Positions 3,152 to 10,293 of a DNA stretch of 10,293 nucleotides are shown piece by piece. A model generated the notes under the pieces. The model was not told where the DNA came from. It did no database searches and worked only from the letters and a program-made list of their open reading frames with translations. The stretch spans positions 1 through 10,293 of the forward strand of contig JAGHUZ010000054.1 of assembly GCA_018064575.1 (NCBI GenBank), in the 5' to 3' direction. Made by a program: the position numbers and the translations under genes. This DNA comes from Candidatus Minthomonas equi. GTDB lineage: Bacteria > Bacteroidota > Bacteroidia > Bacteroidales > UBA932. Position 1 is the stretch's first letter, and every line of letters begins with the position of its first letter.

Positions 3152-5647
3152 ATGAAAGCATTCCTCAAGAAAATACTTCCGTATCTGATTATTATTGTCG
3201 GATTTGTCATAATCGCTCACGCATATGCTCCCGATGCCTTAAGTGGCAAGCAGTTAAATCAGGTCGATACTTCCTCCTGGATGGCTATGTCACACGAAGC
3301 TGCCGAACATAATGAAGCCCATCCGGATGATCAGGCCCTATGGACAGGCTCTATGTTTTCAGGAATGCCGGCCAATACCATCTATGGGGTCGATTCAGGG
3401 AATTTCATTTCCCCCCTGAGGAAACTGCTGATTTTCTGGGTAAAGCCCGTCAATTTCCTGATAGTATCCCTGATAGGAGGATTTCTTTTGATGCTGGCTT
3501 TCGGTGCCGGTATCTGGCTTTCAGCACTTGGTGCCATCGCCATAACATTCTGTTCGTACAATATGCAGATTATCCAGGTCGGACACGAAACCAAGATGAT
3601 GGCCATCGCATTTATGCCCTGGGTTCTGGCTTCACTCGTTTTCGCTTACAGGCGGAACTGTTTTTTCGGTTCCACCCTATTCGGAATAACGTTAAGTATG
3701 GAACTGATGTCGGGGCATCCGCAGATTTCCTATTATCTGGCCATCATCATTTTCGGATATGCCATAGCGGAAGCCGTCACAGCCATAAAAACGCATAAAA
3801 TGGCCCCGTTCGTCAAGACATCCTGCCTTGTTCTCATCTGTGGCATTCTCGGAACTGCCTCCCAGGCCGGTCATCTGCTGCCCCTGAAGGAGTATACCAA
3901 ACATACTATGAGGGGCGGTTCGGAACTCACCACCGACAAGCAGACAAACAGGGACGGCCTGGACATAGACTATGCCACCGCCTGGTCATACGGAGTTTCG
4001 GAAACGCCGAACCTTATGATTCCCGATTTCAACGGAGGTGCTTCGACAGGAGAACTCAGCCGCAATTCCCATACTTTTGAAGCCCTGAATGGCAAATATC
4101 AGGGAGCCGAACAAATCATCAGGCAACTGCCCCTGTACTGGGGACCCCAGCCTTTCACGGCAGGCCCTATGTATCTCGGCGCTGTCTGCGTTTTCCTCTT
4201 CATACTTGGACTTTTCATCGTCAAAGGACCCTACAAGTGGTGGCTGGCAGCCATATCCCTGCTTGCACTGATGCTGGGGTGGGGCTCACATTTTATGTGG
4301 TTTACTGAAATCTGGTTCAAGTATGTCCCCCTGTATAACAAGTTCAGAACGGTGTCGATGGTATTAGTTCTACTCCAGATAAGCGTTCCGCTGATGGGGG
4401 TGCTGACTCTGAAAGAGATTTTCTCGCAGAATCAGGAGAGTGACGAATTAAGTAAAAAACTGTTCTGGTCTTTCGGAATTACCGGCGGATTCTGCCTTCT
4501 TTTCATCCTGTTCCCAGGCCTGGCGGGAGACTTCCGCTCCACCTCGGACAGTTCCCTCCCGGATGATATAACCGCCGCACTCAGACTGGTCAGACAGGCA
4601 CTGCTTCGCGCCGATGCATTCCGCTCCCTGGCCTTTATCTCCGTCAGTTGCCTGATTATATGGCTCGCCGCATTCAAACGGAAATTCAAGACATCCGTCG
4701 CTGTTACTATTCTGTCCCTGCTGGTACTCTGCGATTTGTGGTCAGTGGACAAACGCTATCTGAATGAATCACATTTTTCCTCCCCGAAACAGATGAACGG
4801 GCTTTTCGCCAAGCGCCCTGTCGATGAAATGATTCTTCAGGATGGCGACCCGTCATATAGGGTTTTGGATATCAGTGTGAACACATTCAATGATGCCATT
4901 CCAAGTTATTGGCACAAGACCATCGGAGGCTACAATGCCGCCAAACTCCAGCGTTACCAGGACCTGATAGACCACTTCATCCAGCCGGAAATGTCCAGAC
5001 TCAGCAAGGATATCAACACCACATTGTCTTCCGCAAAAACGATATCGGACGTTGAGGCCGGACTGGGATACTACCCCATCCTCTCTATGCTGAATACAAG
5101 ATATATCGTAATCAATGGCGATACCCCTCCAGTCCGATATGAACGTGCATCAGGCAATGCCTGGTTCGTGTCATCGGTAATCGGAGCGGCCTCTCCGGAT
5201 GAAGAGATTCATCTTCTCGGAGAAATAGACCCGGCTTCCCAAGCCGTCATCTATGAAGGAGATGGAATCGATGTCAAAAGCCTTACCACAGTCCACGGCG
5301 GTGATACCGGGCAGGATTATATAAGGATGTCGGAATACTCTCTGAACCACCTTGAATACGATTATTCATCAGCGGAAGGCGGGGTGGCCGTTTTCAGCGA
5401 AATATATTACCCGGAGGGGTGGAAAGCCATATTGGACGGCAGTCAGGAACTGCCCATTATGCGTGCGGACTGGACTCTCAGGGCTTTGGATTTGCCCGCA
5501 GGAACACACCATATCACTTTCACTTATCTTCCGGAATCATTCGCTATAGGCAGAAAGATATCGATGGCATCATCCATCGCATTGTATATTCTGCTGCTGG
5601 CAGGCATCATATTCAGGAAGAGACTTCCACAGTCTCATACTTTCTGA
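3152..5647 (+). CDS. YfhO-family polytopic membrane protein
   Basis: This 831-residue protein is a Bacteroidota YfhO-type membrane protein, a GT-C-like family linked in Firmicutes to glycosylation of teichoic-acid-type polymers; its role in Bacteroidota is not settled. The N-terminus has one membrane segment (residues about 9-25), followed by GKQLNQVD and a tryptophan-rich loop with LWTGSMFSGMPANTIYG (63-79). Many hydrophobic helices follow to about residue 530, interrupted by conserved loops such as QVGHETKMM (142-150) and SGHPQISYY (187-195). A large extracytoplasmic region (about 540-790) includes EIYYPEGWKAILDG and LPAGTHHITFTYLPESF, a beta-sandwich-like ending. A last membrane helix (about 802-822) and a basic tail close it. 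The ATG at 3152 lies 14 bases after ruvB. The 3' end overlaps the opposing glycosyltransferase by 35 bases. The family call is firm; a role in glycan transfer is inference. Confidence 0.88.
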   Translation: MKAFLKKILPYLIIIVGFVIIAHAYAPDALSGKQLNQVDTSSWMAMSHEAAEHNEAHPDDQALWTGSMFSGMPANTIYGVDSGNFISPLRKLLIFWVKPVNFLIVSLIGGFLLMLAFGAGIWLSALGAIAITFCSYNMQIIQVGHETKMMAIAFMPWVLASLVFAYRRNCFFGSTLFGITLSMELMSGHPQISYYLAIIIFGYAIAEAVTAIKTHKMAPFVKTSCLVLICGILGTASQAGHLLPLKEYTKHTMRGGSELTTDKQTNRDGLDIDYATAWSYGVSETPNLMIPDFNGGASTGELSRNSHTFEALNGKYQGAEQIIRQLPLYWGPQPFTAGPMYLGAVCVFLFILGLFIVKGPYKWWLAAISLLALMLGWGSHFMWFTEIWFKYVPLYNKFRTVSMVLVLLQISVPLMGVLTLKEIFSQNQESDELSKKLFWSFGITGGFCLLFILFPGLAGDFRSTSDSSLPDDITAALRLVRQALLRADAFRSLAFISVSCLIIWLAAFKRKFKTSVAVTILSLLVLCDLWSVDKRYLNESHFSSPKQMNGLFAKRPVDEMILQDGDPSYRVLDISVNTFNDAIPSYWHKTIGGYNAAKLQRYQDLIDHFIQPEMSRLSKDINTTLSSAKTISDVEAGLGYYPILSMLNTRYIVINGDTPPVRYERASGNAWFVSSVIGAASPDEEIHLLGEIDPASQAVIYEGDGIDVKSLTTVHGGDTGQDYIRMSEYSLNHLEYDYSSAEGGVAVFSEIYYPEGWKAILDGSQELPIMRADWTLRALDLPAGTHHITFTYLPESFAIGRKISMASSIALYILLLAGIIFRKRLPQSHTF

Positions 5648-6522: not shown

Positions 6523-7431
6523 ATGAAGATTTCCGTCATCGTCTGCACTTTCAACAGGGACAAGTACATCTATAATGTTTTGGCCTCCATCGCCGGAAAT
6601 GATTTCCCGAAATCGGAATATGAAATCATTCTGGTGGACAATAACTGCACGGATAATACCGCCGTTGAAGTGAAGCGCTTTAAAAAAGACTTTCCAGACA
6701 CTGAGCTGAAGTATGTAATCGAATCCCATCTGGGTCTTTCTTATGCCAGAAACCGTGGTATCTCCGAGTCGGTAGGAAATCTCCTGGTGTATGTCGATGA
6801 TGATGCCACTGTAAATCCACAATATCTCCCGGCCCTGTCGGCCCTGTTCGGGAAATACCCCGACATAATGGCCGCAGGAGGTCCCATAATCCCAGTATAT
6901 GAAGACGAAGCGGAACCCCCGTGGATGAACAGTCACCTGAGGAGGCTGCTGACCGGTTATCTGTATTTCGGGAAAAAGGAAAGACCCTTCCCTATGAACT
7001 GTTACCCAGGAGGCGGGAATGCCGCATACAGAAGAAGCGTTTTCGAAAAAACGGGAACATTCCATACAGGACTGGGCAGAAAAGGAAAAAATTTGTCCGC
7101 AGGAGAAGAGAAGGACATCTTCGACAGGATGACATCAGCCGGAATGAAGTTCATTTATACCCCCGACGCCATCCTGTACCACATAATCCCGCACTACAAA
7201 CTTGAAAGCGCTTATCTGGAACAAGTCTCGAACTGCATCGGAAAAAGCGAACGGGTCAGAACCCTGTCGGTTTCAAAGAAAAAATACCGAATGAGGCTTC
7301 TGTCTGAAGCCGTCAAATGGGGCGGGACCATCGTGCTGTGCTTATTCCACCTGCTGCGCCTGAGACCGGCAAGCGGCAGAAAACTGCTCATTTTCCGATA
7401 TTACGTCACTAAGGGATTGCTGCAGAACTAA
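6523..7431 (+). CDS. GT2 family glycosyltransferase
   Basis: A 302-residue inverting GT-A glycosyltransferase. The first strand is MKISVIVCTFNRDKYI, followed by EIILVDNNCTDNT (34-46) and SYARNRGI (73-80), which carries the family's ARN signature. The metal-binding aspartates are in VYVDDDATV (D92-D94). PGGGNAAYRRSVF (162-174) forms the acceptor-side loop, and GEEKDIFDRM (194-203) supplies the catalytic-base region equivalent to the ED motif. A hydrophobic stretch near 266-281 (GGTIVLCLFHLLRL) followed by basic residues suggests membrane association at the C-terminus. It is transcribed away from the preceding glycosyltransferase. Its stop (7429-7431) interlocks with the opposing LicD-type gene's stop. 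About 50% GC in the lines counted, higher than both neighbours. A role in surface polysaccharide or O-glycan assembly is inferred from context; the sugar is unknown. Confidence 0.92.
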   Translation: MKISVIVCTFNRDKYIYNVLASIAGNDFPKSEYEIILVDNNCTDNTAVEVKRFKKDFPDTELKYVIESHLGLSYARNRGISESVGNLLVYVDDDATVNPQYLPALSALFGKYPDIMAAGGPIIPVYEDEAEPPWMNSHLRRLLTGYLYFGKKERPFPMNCYPGGGNAAYRRSVFEKTGTFHTGLGRKGKNLSAGEEKDIFDRMTSAGMKFIYTPDAILYHIIPHYKLESAYLEQVSNCIGKSERVRTLSVSKKKYRMRLLSEAVKWGGTIVLCLFHLLRLRPASGRKLLIFRYYVTKGLLQN

Positions 7432-8159
7432 CGATGGCGCCCTTTCGCAGCGGATTTTACTGTTTCGGAGATATCATAAGCCCTGTATGTTCTTTCTTTT
7501 GCGTGAATTATACGTGTAATGCAGTTTTTGGCATTCCAGTTCCTGATAGGCGTCATATACGAGTCTGAATATATCGCCTTCAGCCATTCATCTGTCTTTA
7601 CAGGCATATAAATCTTAAGACCAAGAAAATCTCTCCGCTCAAAATCAGTATCCGGCACATAACTCCTGTCACACGGAAACCCGTCTGTGGAATTAGCTTC
7701 TTTCCACTCTTTAGTCTCGTGCGCTCTCTGGATTATACTGTAGAGATCTTCTTCTTCCCGATGATAATGGAAAATGTCTAAATGTATTTTATCGTAAATA
7801 TATGTCTCTTCTGCTATTTGCTTTGTTCCTTCCACATAAATCTGCCTGTAAAACTTAAACCCTGCTTTCTCCATACGTTCACACAAATCGACGGGTGCCT
7901 CTTCCGCCAGAATTCCAAGGTCAATGTCCGGGTCGTAAGATATGAACCCGTGTTCACGATATGCGCCCAGAATGGTTCCGTATGTCAAGAATGGTTTCAA
8001 CCCCATCCCGGTCAGGACTTTATCTGCCTCTGCCAGCATCTTCAGACCATTTTTTTTCATTCTATGCGCCTGAATCTTGAATTTGGCTTTGTTTATCCAT
8101 TCTACCAAACATCTGTAGATTCCAATTTTTAAGGCAATTTTTACTAATAAATCTCTCAT
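7428..8159 (-). CDS. LicD-family phosphotransferase
   Basis: LicD proteins transfer a phospho-alcohol (classically phosphocholine) from a CDP carrier to a glycan and have a nucleotidyltransferase-like fold. This 243-residue protein shows LTYGTILGAYREHGFI (58-73), then SYDPDIDLGI (74-83) with the paired metal aspartates D78 and D80. A third acidic position lies in KIHLDIFHY (124-132, D128). The C-terminal LGLKIYMPVKTDEWL and YSDSYMTPIRNW match the family's closing motif. The N-terminal ~35 residues are basic and amphipathic, possibly a membrane contact. Its ATG overlaps the TGA of the dehydrogenase gene upstream (ATGA at 8156-8159), implying translational coupling. It is the last gene of a three-gene minus-strand operon. 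GC is low (35% in one line counted). The real donor may be CDP-ethanolamine-like rather than CDP-choline, given the PLP enzyme in the operon; this is inference. Confidence 0.85.
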   Translation of the reverse strand: MRDLLVKIALKIGIYRCLVEWINKAKFKIQAHRMKKNGLKMLAEADKVLTGMGLKPFLTYGTILGAYREHGFISYDPDIDLGILAEEAPVDLCERMEKAGFKFYRQIYVEGTKQIAEETYIYDKIHLDIFHYHREEEDLYSIIQRAHETKEWKEANSTDGFPCDRSYVPDTDFERRDFLGLKIYMPVKTDEWLKAIYSDSYMTPIRNWNAKNCITRIIHAKERTYRAYDISETVKSAAKGRHR

Positions 8160-9151
8160 TTCCTAAATGATATTCTTGATATCCCCCATTCATAAACCCT
8201 GTTGATTACAGGAGTCTCCACCTTGTTCTCCTTTGCCAGATTTTTTATCCACCTGAGACCGAACGGAAAATCTTCGATAAAGTAACGGCTGGCGAAATCC
8301 GCCCTCCACCCACTTCCCGTCATAGTCATCGGAGTAAGTATTCCTTCGAAAGCTTTAATGCTCCGTATCTTTCTCGTTAACGATTCGGCATCATAACTTT
8401 CGTAATAATCCAACAATGTAGGTATTGTCTTGATTCCCAGTCTGTCAAGCAATTCGAAGAACTCATTGTCCATTTCAATTTCAATCTCTGAAGCTTCATT
8501 TGTCCACTCCTTGTAAAATAGTATCTGACGGTCAAACACCTCATTTTCCCTGTCTTTGAATATAGAATACAACCGTCCTGTATGAAGAATCGGATTAGAG
8601 TTGGTCAGGGAAGCTTCATAGATGCTGTTCAATATTGAAACAGGTGTACCGAAAAGTTTCTCCAAAATATTTTCAAAGCCATCTTCTATGTTTTGTTCGG
8701 CTACAGCCAACTCTTTTTTATATCCGAGCAGAGTGGCGGATTTACCATATTCATTAACTCTTGCGATATATGGTACTCTCTGAAAACCAAATAGTTTAGC
8801 ATTCTCTCCGAGCACTTTATGTGCAAAAAAGAAAAACCCTGTACTCGAAACCACAGAGCCTACTTTCGCATCGCCAATAAATGGTTTTATTTTCATCAGG
8901 GTGTCCTCTATCAGACAGCCGGGCAAGCACAACAGCACTATGTCCTGATTCCTTAGAACCTCTGACGGCTTTTCAGATACTTTGAACAGTCTTCCCGTAT
9001 ATTCTTTGCCATAACAATCGCGCACAAAAATTTCATTTCTCCACTTCCCCGGATGCCCTGTCAGTATAGATACTTCGTTATCTTCTTGGGATGATAACAC
9101 TCCGGCACAGACGTGGCCTAATGACCCTCCCCCGCAAATACAAATTTTCAT
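8156..9151 (-). CDS. octopine/nopaline (opine) dehydrogenase-family protein
   Basis: Opine dehydrogenases reductively condense an amine (usually an amino acid) with a 2-keto acid using NAD(P)H. This 331-residue protein has an N-terminal Rossmann fold, MKICICGGGSLGHVCAG, with the dinucleotide loop GGGSLG (7-12). VLLCLPGCLIED (72-83) is the typical second crossover. The C-terminal octopine-dehydrogenase-like domain has SLTNSNPILHTGRLYSIF (181-198), in which H190 aligns with the catalytic histidine of the family by motif. It ends with ASRYFIEDFPFGLRW (287-301) and KVETPVINRVYEWG. Length is near that of bacterial members. Both ends overlap neighbours by ATGA. The substrate is unknown; the partners (a PLP enzyme fused to a nucleotidyltransferase, and LicD) point to a small phosphorylated amine rather than a free amino acid. 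It could alternatively act as a ketopantoate-reductase-like dehydrogenase, which shares the N-terminal fold but lacks this C-terminal domain. Confidence 0.82.
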   Translation of the reverse strand: MKICICGGGSLGHVCAGVLSSQEDNEVSILTGHPGKWRNEIFVRDCYGKEYTGRLFKVSEKPSEVLRNQDIVLLCLPGCLIEDTLMKIKPFIGDAKVGSVVSSTGFFFFAHKVLGENAKLFGFQRVPYIARVNEYGKSATLLGYKKELAVAEQNIEDGFENILEKLFGTPVSILNSIYEASLTNSNPILHTGRLYSIFKDRENEVFDRQILFYKEWTNEASEIEIEMDNEFFELLDRLGIKTIPTLLDYYESYDAESLTRKIRSIKAFEGILTPMTMTGSGWRADFASRYFIEDFPFGLRWIKNLAKENKVETPVINRVYEWGISRISFRK

Positions 9152-10293
9152 AGTTTCTTCAATTGCTCAACCAGATAAGAATTGTCCTTCCTGTCCCTCA
9201 CGGCCAACCTGATGAGATTACGTCCCTTCATAGCAGCCTTCCCTCCACAATCCTTTATCAATATGTTTTTCCGCAGCAGTTTCATAGCCAGTTCGCGAGG
9301 CTTGAATTTGTCAATTATCTCACAAAGGAAATAGTTTGCCTGTGAGTCAAATACTTTCAGATAAGAGATTTCTTCCAACTCCTGCCTGAATATTTTTCTC
9401 TCTTCGCGAAAATATCGGCATCCCTCTTCGTAGTCGTTTTTATATTTTTCATATATCTGCATATAGAACTCCCCGAATGAGTTTATATTCCATATAGCCA
9501 CGTCCTTTTTAATCTGTGCCATAATTTCTCTGTTTCCGGACGCCATTATCCCAAGCCGCAATCCGGGAACGCCATAACTTTTGCTTATCGATTTAACCAC
9601 AAATAAATGTGGATTTTCCGCAAGTATCGCATTATCCAATAATGATGTCTCCCCTTCTACGTCAGCAAAGTCAACGAAACTTTCATCTACTACAAATCTC
9701 CATCCCTTCTCTTTAGTCCACTGTATCAAGCCCAGCAATTCATCAAAAGGAATATAATTTCCTGACGGATTATCTGGATTGATAAGCAGCAAAGTATCTA
9801 TGTCTTTATCCTTGAAATAATTTTTCACATCCTCTGCTGAATAATGAAAATCCTCTGAATCGGGAACATATTGCACCAGATGCTCTTTTGATAAGCGGTT
9901 CGGATATTCCTCGAAGGTAGGAAGAATATTTCCCAAGGTACCGGCATACCCCTCCATCAATGCCTTAATCAGTTCCGCCGCACCATTCCCCACTACGATA
10001 AAATCCTCTTTTACTCCGAAATTTTTCGAGGCAAGCAGTGAATTTACTTTCATTCCCGAAGGATACTCCCTTATCAGCGTATCAAAACTTGCCCTTATCT
10101 CATCAAGCAGTTTCTGTGGTGGAAAATATGGATTGACGAGATAACAATAATCCAACATCTGAGGGTAACGCCAATAACCGCCGTAACGACATATATATGC
10201 CATATAACGCTCCTCGTCTGTATCAGCAAACATAGCGGTGGCAATGTCCAAATCCTGAATGTCATCTATTTCATACCATATCTCGCCGCTGAG
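9148..10293 (-). CDS. nucleotidyltransferase-PLP aminotransferase/decarboxylase fusion, 5' end beyond window
   Basis: The minus-strand frame is open to the right edge: 381 residues visible, no true start. The first visible residues, GEIWYEIDDIQDLDIATAMF, are the C-terminal end typical of LicC/MobA-like sugar or alcohol-phosphate nucleotidyltransferases. A linker with YGGYWRYPQMLDYCYLVNPYF leads into a fold-type I PLP domain of the HisC/CobD type. That domain has VVGNGAAELI (PLP phosphate loop), LLINPDNPSGNYI, VVDESFVDFA (the aspartate contacting the pyridine nitrogen), SISKSYGVPGLRLG with the Schiff-base lysine at 9580-9582, and NLIRLAVRDRKDN (carboxylate-binding arginine). A TTG at 10249-10251 is not the start, since the homologous frame continues through it. 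Related fusions in capsule loci pair a cytidylyltransferase with a PLP enzyme making ethanolamine phosphate or serinol phosphate. Whether this one is an aminotransferase or a decarboxylase cannot be decided. It is the first visible gene of the operon with the dehydrogenase and LicD genes. Confidence 0.85.
   Translation of the reverse strand, partial: LSGEIWYEIDDIQDLDIATAMFADTDEERYMAYICRYGGYWRYPQMLDYCYLVNPYFPPQKLLDEIRASFDTLIREYPSGMKVNSLLASKNFGVKEDFIVVGNGAAELIKALMEGYAGTLGNILPTFEEYPNRLSKEHLVQYVPDSEDFHYSAEDVKNYFKDKDIDTLLLINPDNPSGNYIPFDELLGLIQWTKEKGWRFVVDESFVDFADVEGETSLLDNAILAENPHLFVVKSISKSYGVPGLRLGIMASGNREIMAQIKKDVAIWNINSFGEFYMQIYEKYKNDYEEGCRYFREERKIFRQELEEISYLKVFDSQANYFLCEIIDKFKPRELAMKLLRKNILIKDCGGKAAMKGRNLIRLAVRDRKDNSYLVEQLKKL

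Follow-up and report, generated by a model that had tools for sequence, protein, structure and literature searches.

At the end of a 10,293-nucleotide contig of the gut bacterium Candidatus Minthomonas equi (the window, i.e., the whole stretch of DNA analysed), positions 7428..10293 of the minus strand carry a three-gene operon for a nucleotidyltransferase fused to a pyridoxal phosphate (PLP) enzyme, an opine dehydrogenase (ODH) and a LicD-type phosphotransferase. Counterparts of these parts occur in several described systems. FrbH of FR-900098 biosynthesis (PMC8976061, PMC6697681) resembles the window-type fusion in combining an N-terminal cytidylyltransferase with a C-terminal decarboxylase, acting in that order (PMC8976061), and in yielding a CMP-tethered amine; the two are likened by description, and FrbH differs in acting on 2-amino-4-phosphonobutyrate for an antibiotic, whereas the fusion studied here lies in glycan-type loci with LicD and ODH. 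The fusion of PntC with an aminoethylphosphonate (AEP) transaminase, Tde1415 (6pd1; PMC6697681), likewise joins a cytidylyltransferase to a PLP enzyme for surface tailoring, its PLP part being of class V, in contrast to the class I/II, CobD-like part found here. In Campylobacter, Cj1436 and Cj1437 are likewise PLP enzymes that make ethanolamine or serinol phosphate within a capsule locus; they differ in that the amine forms an amide with glucuronate, and the excerpts mention no CTP activation, LicD or ODH (PMC11800397). The octopine dehydrogenase (OcDH) of Pecten maximus (3c7a/3iqd; PMC2924402) shares with the window's ODH the fold family, the catalytic His-Asp pair and the NADH-sensing Arg, whereas its E142/T143 pair is replaced by Q/D/E and R/K in the ODHs surveyed here. 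The Lic-1 phosphocholine pathway (LicA, LicC, LicD; PMC10434233) shares LicC-like activation and LicD transfer. Unlike Lic-1, the operon described here would make its amine by a PLP domain and then pass it to an opine dehydrogenase. Choline, a quaternary amine, cannot be N-alkylated by an ODH-type reaction.

We propose, at a probability of about 0.6, that the operon makes and transfers a 'phospho-opine': a 2-aminoethyl phosphate (or phosphonate) would be activated with CTP, the ODH would N-carboxyalkylate it, and LicD would transfer the product; the substrates, the sequence of reactions and the acceptor are all inferred. The fusion would first work like FrbH: its LicC/PntC-like domain would couple a phosphorylated amino acid or amino alcohol with CTP, and the amine would come from its CobD-like PLP domain, most likely through decarboxylation of O-phosphoserine or CDP-serine to (CDP-)ethanolamine phosphate. 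By the FrbH precedent, cytidylylation would come first and decarboxylation second, leading from phosphoserine to CDP-ethanolamine. The ODH would then join a 2-oxo acid, of which pyruvate is the likeliest, to the primary amine by reductive condensation, giving an N-(1-carboxyalkyl) 2-aminoethyl phosphate, possibly on the CMP-tethered substrate, and LicD would finally transfer the phospho-group to a surface glycan or a lipid. With pyruvate and ethanolamine phosphate as substrates, the predicted product is N-(1-carboxyethyl)ethanolamine phosphate, which in its form N-[(R)-1-carboxyethyl]ethanolamine phosphate (R-Cet-EtnP) belongs to Proteus O-antigen structures. R-Cet-EtnP is named as a substituent in a figure legend and glossary of a paper on the O-antigens of P. 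mirabilis and the capsules of Klebsiella (PMC9630907). In the open-licence literature searched, the excerpts name this substituent or related ones without genes, and no enzymes or gene set for it were found; the main text of a paper on Proteus O-antigen clusters (PMC5560731) contains neither carboxyethyl nor octopine nor LicD. In the same literature, octopine dehydrogenase and LicD are never mentioned together, and opine dehydrogenase is absent from the matches listed for LicD, aminoethylphosphonate, phosphoethanolamine and polysaccharide. CTP activation and LicD transfer are known logic; the reductive N-carboxyalkylation step is the new part.

The window is the entire contig C203 of the metagenome-assembled genome G000 (1.36 Mb, 321 contigs, 73.8% complete), and the three frames were found as originally predicted, all on the minus strand and all with Pfam support. 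The C-terminal part of the fusion (9148..10293), cut by the contig end, carries the CobD/HisC-like PLP domain (Aminotran_1_2, E 1.4e-29); the ODH (8156..9151; 331 residues) matches Octopine_DH (PF02317, E 2.9e-32) with 112.2 bits and passes the cut-off of 30; and the LicD-type phosphotransferase (7428..8159; 243 residues) is of a short subclass (PF04991, E 3.2e-7). Both junctions read ATGA, the PLP stop overlapping the ODH start at 9148..9151 and the ODH stop the LicD start at 8156..8159 (both on the minus strand). The claim of a fusion stands in part: in addition to the PLP domain, the window holds the last ~24 residues of a LicC/PntC-like cytidylyltransferase domain (10222..10293, minus strand), including the motif WYEIDDIQDLDIA, where LicC, as aligned from 1jyk, reads SIYEIDSVQDY; the remainder of the N-terminal domain is deduced from relatives.

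Full-length fusions of 601-607 residues are present in six loci, with PLP parts 55-64% identical to that of the window, and in the three that were scanned Pfam recognizes both parts (NTP_transf_3/NTP_transferase and Aminotran_1_2). The best PDB match of the relatives' N-terminal domain is 6pd1, the PntC of Tde1415 (66.6 bits, 2.8e-17), followed by 1jyk, LicC (65.6 bits, 5.6e-17), and then by 7whr (42.1 bits, 8.7e-10), which we take to be a sugar-type nucleotidyltransferase. The original prediction hinged on this domain not being a sugar nucleotidyltransferase, and with PntC and LicC as the nearest solved structures it held up. The sugar reading, prompted by the NCBIfam list, was set aside, not excluded, on this PDB ranking. 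The LicC/PntC cytidylyltransferases (PF12804/PF00483) share the motif GXG(T/S)RX4-8PK, whose catalytic Arg and Lys are essential in PntC (PMC6697681). The relatives read GMG(R/K)RLxExTxxxTK, so that T/S is replaced by R or K and P by T, and the equivalents of PntC R15 and K25 are invariant in 8/8 aligned rows. Fusions of this type abound: E 1e-150 is reached by 7999 of the 8000 candidates scored. The 120 that were listed are 589-617 residues long and, where their sources name them, are called aminotransferases or cobyric-acid-decarboxylase-like.

The fusion and the ODH occur together more often than by chance. In an order-level sample of 393 genomes, 13 carry the fusion (counting the truncated one of the window and one split into two frames, and excluding 14 genomes that match the PLP domain alone at 206.8-277.1 bits) and six a close ODH, i.e., one over 300 bits; all six are among the 13 (hypergeometric 3.5e-10, or 3.4e-7 without G000 and G051, which are both in the profiles; genome relatedness is ignored in both values). 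The fusion adjoins the ODH in four of these six and lies on another contig in two. As a negative control, none of six genomes with a generic ODH only (142.0-159.0 bits) carries the fusion at E 1e-60. The predicted co-occurrence elsewhere was thus seen in the order sample and also in a second class.

For a broader survey, 28 ODH genomes were assembled: the six of the order sample, nine from 348 genomes of the family, eight Bacteroidales loci (L007-L014) from a scan of genome contigs, which also gave a locus labelled Clostridiales (L015), and five from 291 genomes of the class of L015, its own included. Only G033 and G914 among them have ODHs above 85% identity. Twenty of the 28 carry the fusion, which lies directly beside the ODH in 15 (G000, G051, G297, G075, G033, G914, G1003, G1010, L007, L008, L009, L010, L011, G672 and G612), 5.4 kb away on the same strand in L014, and on a different contig in G324, G226, G955 and G868. 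In G033, the last 102 residues of the fusion are on the ODH contig and the remainder is at the end of another. The fusion of G297 is in two frames (L069 8003-9953), by a natural break or an assembly error. At the 12 loci measured besides the window, the two genes are on the same strand (12/12) and separated by -59 to +25 bp, with starts set as first-ATG/GTG/TTG guesses. The second class has the orders LicD-fusion-ODH (G612) and ODH-fusion (G672), and its fusions share 50-59% identity with those compared from Bacteroidales, whereas its ODHs share just 26-36% with the ODHs of that order, which argues that the pair was re-assembled or exchanged across classes rather than simply inherited.

The eight surveyed genomes without the fusion are informative about the substrate of the ODH, as six show another source of a 2-aminoethyl phosphate or phosphonate, one a PLP gene and one nothing. 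Phosphoenolpyruvate (PEP) mutase is over its cut-off in four of the eight (G423, G424, G511 and G568) vs. none of the 20 with the fusion, a contrast (one-sided exact 0.0034, relatedness uncorrected) that gives no clean probability, the genomes being related and the background frequency of PEP mutase across these groups not entering the comparison. PntC-like and transaminase-like genes (named by profile or eye) accompany the mutase in G423 and G424, and in locus L082 Pfam confirms PEP_mutase. In G996 and G907, a LicC-like gene, a LicC-choline/ethanolamine-kinase fusion and LicDs stand beside the ODH (Pfam on the G907 copies). The loci L106 (1474-7745) and L105 show the ODH by a LicC-like gene, a frame that looks by eye like an amidohydrolase, a LicC-choline/ethanolamine-kinase fusion and two LicDs. 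In G425, a HisC-like PLP gene directly precedes the ODH, and ahead of it stand a LicD gene and one that matches no Pfam family. PEP mutase is absent from 12/13 fusion genomes of the order sample and has no match in G000, at its 73.8% completeness, which makes a phosphate ester the more likely donor in the window. This switching of donors between fusion, phosphonate route and LicC-kinase, taken with proteins that unite ODH and LicD, suggests that the ODH acts on the amine of a 2-aminoethyl phosphate or phosphonate. That an amino-alcohol phosphate is alkylated by the ODH and placed by LicD, as originally predicted, has thereby gained ground as regards the amine; the PLP reaction, the keto acid, the order of the steps and the acceptor are still proposals. 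In a clostridial LicD-ODH locus (L089 5623-6759 and 9013-10353) and by a Prevotella phosphonate cluster (L081 2110-3186 and 3183-4526), a class-V PLP enzyme and a two-domain CTP_transf_like/GFO_IDH_MocA protein occur together, possibly as another route to a CDP-amino-alcohol.

The amine itself could be a different one. A PLP transaminase might form serinol phosphate from dihydroxyacetone phosphate, as Cj1437 does in its capsule locus (PMC11800397), or a threonine-phosphate decarboxylase might form 1-amino-2-propanol phosphate, and the ODH would alkylate the product. In favour of this reading, the window's PLP domain misses the NCBIfam cut-offs for both CobD (TIGR01140; 162.6 bits, cut-off 290.55) and HisC (137.9 bits, cut-off 276.55), and three relatives' domains are likewise under the CobD cut-off (161.2-170.1 bits); by score, it is CobD-like, yet neither a CobD nor a HisC. 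Its best PDB match is 6oux (1.7e-54), followed by 3ftb and the CobD 1lc5. The molecule name of 6oux is the one given to SMUL_1544 (PMC7755780), and SMUL_1544 resembles CobD and has been proposed as a producer of ethanolamine phosphate (PMC4585668). From the shared name, 6oux is presumably SMUL_1544, which makes a decarboxylase likelier than a transaminase. The switch to the phosphonate route also fits a 2-aminoethyl group best, and we regard a different amine as unlikely.

The ODH itself may be suited to an amine bearing a phosphate. The equivalents of OcDH H212, R324 and D329 are H190, R289 and D294 in the window, and the catalytic His and Asp and the NADH-sensing Arg are kept in 28/28 surveyed ODHs. 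Glu142 of octopine dehydrogenase contacts the guanidinium of arginine (PMC2924402); at this position, the window has Q124, G672 and G425 have D, and G612 has E. Judged by this contact, the window's enzyme does not qualify as an octopine dehydrogenase proper. The position of OcDH T143 is R125 in the window and is occupied by R in 26 and K in one of the 27 surveyed ODHs that cover it (the ODH of G782, the N-terminal half of which is missing, is excluded), in contrast to L in 7/7 generic ODHs. K261 is present in 27/28 (A in G226) vs. S in 7/7 generic ODHs. R125 and K261 would fit a pocket for a phosphate-bearing amine. The family at large has 4223 proteins at E 0.001 among 5910 candidates, in a search that covered proteins up to 1.75 times the query length, and the window's ODH has no match to a phage family. 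In a first scan of 59 relatives, five had an ODH at E 1e-20 (G000, G033, G051, G012 and G041); the first three entered the survey, and G012 and G041, which have generic ODHs of 400 residues, did not.

In fusion genomes without a close ODH, another enzyme may do its work. Directly after the fusion, three of the seven (G171, G067 and G413) have an enzyme of the OCD/mu-crystallin family, which by database names includes enzymes that reduce alpha-imino acids; the nearest PDB match of the G067 copy is a pyrroline-2-carboxylate reductase. LicD follows directly in G067 and G413 and three genes on in G171. Judged from family and position, a different family with the same kind of C=N reduction takes the place of the ODH; G568 holds both enzymes. 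In G782 (L111), ODH and LicD form one frame. With this frame as query, 161 proteins were retrieved at E 1e-60; both domains are present in 78 of the 120 listed, a proportion that says nothing on how common the ODH-LicD fusion is among ODHs, as a fused query favours fused proteins. The ODH comes first, R125 and K261 are kept, and the Asp motif of LicD is present, each in 78/78. On a tree of 11 ODH-LicD representatives and 27 other ODHs, the fused label needs eight changes, at least four of them forced by well-supported branches, which indicates that fusion or fission arose repeatedly.

The union of ODH and LicD in one protein suits either order of their reactions, and the ODH might act only after transfer, on a 2-aminoethyl phosphate already on the glycan or on a lipid-linked repeat. 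In the FrbH pathway, N-tailoring steps act on CMP-tethered amines, a precedent that favours alkylation before transfer, and the ODH adjoins the donor-making gene in 15/28 genomes. Action after transfer is accordingly improbable in our estimate.

At the transfer step, the window's LicD passes PF04991 with 31.1 bits (cut-off 22.6), while covering just profile positions 5-100 of 227; D76, D78, D80 and D128, invariant across 12 aligned LicDs, are kept. A LicD is close to the ODH or the fusion in 18/28 surveyed genomes, by Pfam or a custom profile. In the order sample, Pfam detects LicD in 11 of the 13 fusion genomes and the custom profile alone in a twelfth, G413; in G075, the remaining one, a CDP-alcohol phosphatidyltransferase gene takes its place, immediately behind fusion and ODH (L067 7687-8400). 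Both transferases use CDP-alcohols, which fits a cytidylyltransferase as the N-terminal domain. Instead of decorating a glycan, the phospho-opine could also become the head group of a lipid. This would suit G075, where no LicD follows, and the sole NCBIfam match of the window's LicD, the diacylglycerol cholinephosphotransferase Mf1 (44.6 bits, far below the cut-off of 225). Glycosyltransferase, flippase-like and sugar-nucleotide genes (mostly named by eye, some by Pfam) around a number of copies speak for a glycan, as does the description of LicD as transferring phosphocholine to glycans (PMC10434233), and a lipid destination seems quite improbable. Least probable is an independent ODH that shares the locus and makes an opine amino acid of the alanopine or N-carboxyethyl-lysine type to be linked elsewhere: such amino acids occur in Providencia O-antigens (PMC10609480) and a close ODH is missing from seven of the 13 fusion genomes, but the ODH accompanies 2-aminoethyl donors by whichever route, gives way in some genomes to an imine reductase from a different family at the corresponding position, and can be fused to LicD.

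Several observations weigh against the proposed phospho-opine pathway. At the level of the domains, the sugar-type Arch_glmU tops the NCBIfam list for the N-terminal domain (73-88 bits, far off the cut-off of 292.1), and a Lys in its alignment is one column away from PntC Lys153; the PLP domain, far under the CobD cut-off, could be a transaminase; and R125 and K261 may be marks of a clade rather than substrate contacts. As for gene content, 7/13 fusion genomes of the order sample are without a close ODH, which makes the ODH an option and no requirement, and in 10/28 surveyed genomes neither ODH nor fusion has a LicD nearby within the stretches examined, which excluded the fusion surroundings of G955 and G868. 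G425 and G782 have neither fusion nor PEP mutase, the locus of G782 being truncated by a contig that ends in the ODH, and G413, with fusion and OCD enzyme and without an ODH, also carries PEP mutase. Further afield, the fusion, whole or split, stands without an annotated ODH nearby in the records examined from Rahnella, Erwinia and Bradyrhizobium, whose annotation is incomplete, and a Fusobacterium record likewise shows none by custom profiles. The Rahnella (L128 5980-13788) and Erwinia (L129 5980-13791) plasmids have a nucleotidyltransferase-PLP fusion, a CDP-alcohol transferase, HAD enzymes, an SDR and an ATP-grasp enzyme annotated and look like natural-product clusters.

Distant ODHs are found in diverse surroundings. 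On a plasmid of Rhizobium sp. 007 (NZ_CP064190.1; L125 462-11815), an ODH 25.4% identical to the window's follows a PEP mutase, a cytidylyltransferase, a CDP-alcohol transferase and a CobD-like PLP gene, i.e., a phosphonate-type cluster. Two plasmids, one from Burkholderia and one from Paraburkholderia, encode ODHs with 32% identity to that of the window next to oxidase, tyrosinase and methyltransferase genes; the annotation of the surrounding stretches that were viewed lists neither LicD nor fusion. These ODHs are a counter-example, in that not every ODH of ~30% identity belongs to this system. An ODH of P. mirabilis (NZ_OL790811, NZ_OL790812), 24.9% identical, was dropped, as it looks unrelated to the O-antigen: in the one record opened, it follows a frame that by eye starts like a cysteine synthase. 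These two records are no evidence about the serotypes with the carboxyethyl-ethanolamine-phosphate substituent. Both of them (4.1 Mb) and the Fusobacterium vincentii record NZ_CP084075 (2.1 Mb) are filed as plasmids and look like chromosomes.

Taken more widely, the loci might belong to a general phospho-opine system for surface tailoring in Bacteroidales, Clostridia and Rhizobium, a tentative view to which we give slightly less than even odds. Nucleotide-tethered 2-aminoethyl phosphates or phosphonates would be N-carboxyalkylated by modules with swappable donors (the FrbH-like fusion, PEP mutase/PntC or LicC-kinase), reductases of two families (ODH or OCD/mu-crystallin) and transferases of two types (LicD or CDP-alcohol phosphotransferase), with the ODH of the Rhizobium phosphonate cluster recruited separately.

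Of the neighbouring genes in the window, the frame at 6523..7431 on the plus strand encodes a GT2 glycosyltransferase (Pfam E 7e-26), which converges on the LicD gene, the ends overlapping by four bases, and is possibly part of the locus for the acceptor glycan. The original prediction placed the operon beside glycosyltransferases, which is right for this gene; the 318-residue frame at 5613-6569 matches no Pfam or NCBIfam family. A 137-residue frame adjoining mfd (1645-2058) is apparently a broken or truncated gene, 53-59% identical over 81-88 residues to glycosyltransferase-like proteins of 378-382 residues in L007 and L064 (family assigned by eye). A YfhO-like membrane protein is encoded around the operon in five loci (window 3152-5647, L007 1429-3960, L011 5856-8291, L061 11479-14019 and L064 130-2631), the others being 35-40% identical to the window's; it may serve the acceptor pathway or merely be common in these genomes.

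If the proposed pathway is correct, it would give a concrete gene set to a surface substituent so far known as a chemical structure, the enzymes for which are not in the open-licence literature searched. The current names of the fusion proteins, aminotransferase or cobyric-acid-decarboxylase-like, would hide this pathway. A phosphonate counterpart of the phospho-opine is predicted as well, of which we met no description. Every step of the proposed pathway is directly assayable. For the cell, the ODH reaction would add a carboxylate to a zwitterionic phospho-amine and would thereby alter the charge of the surface.

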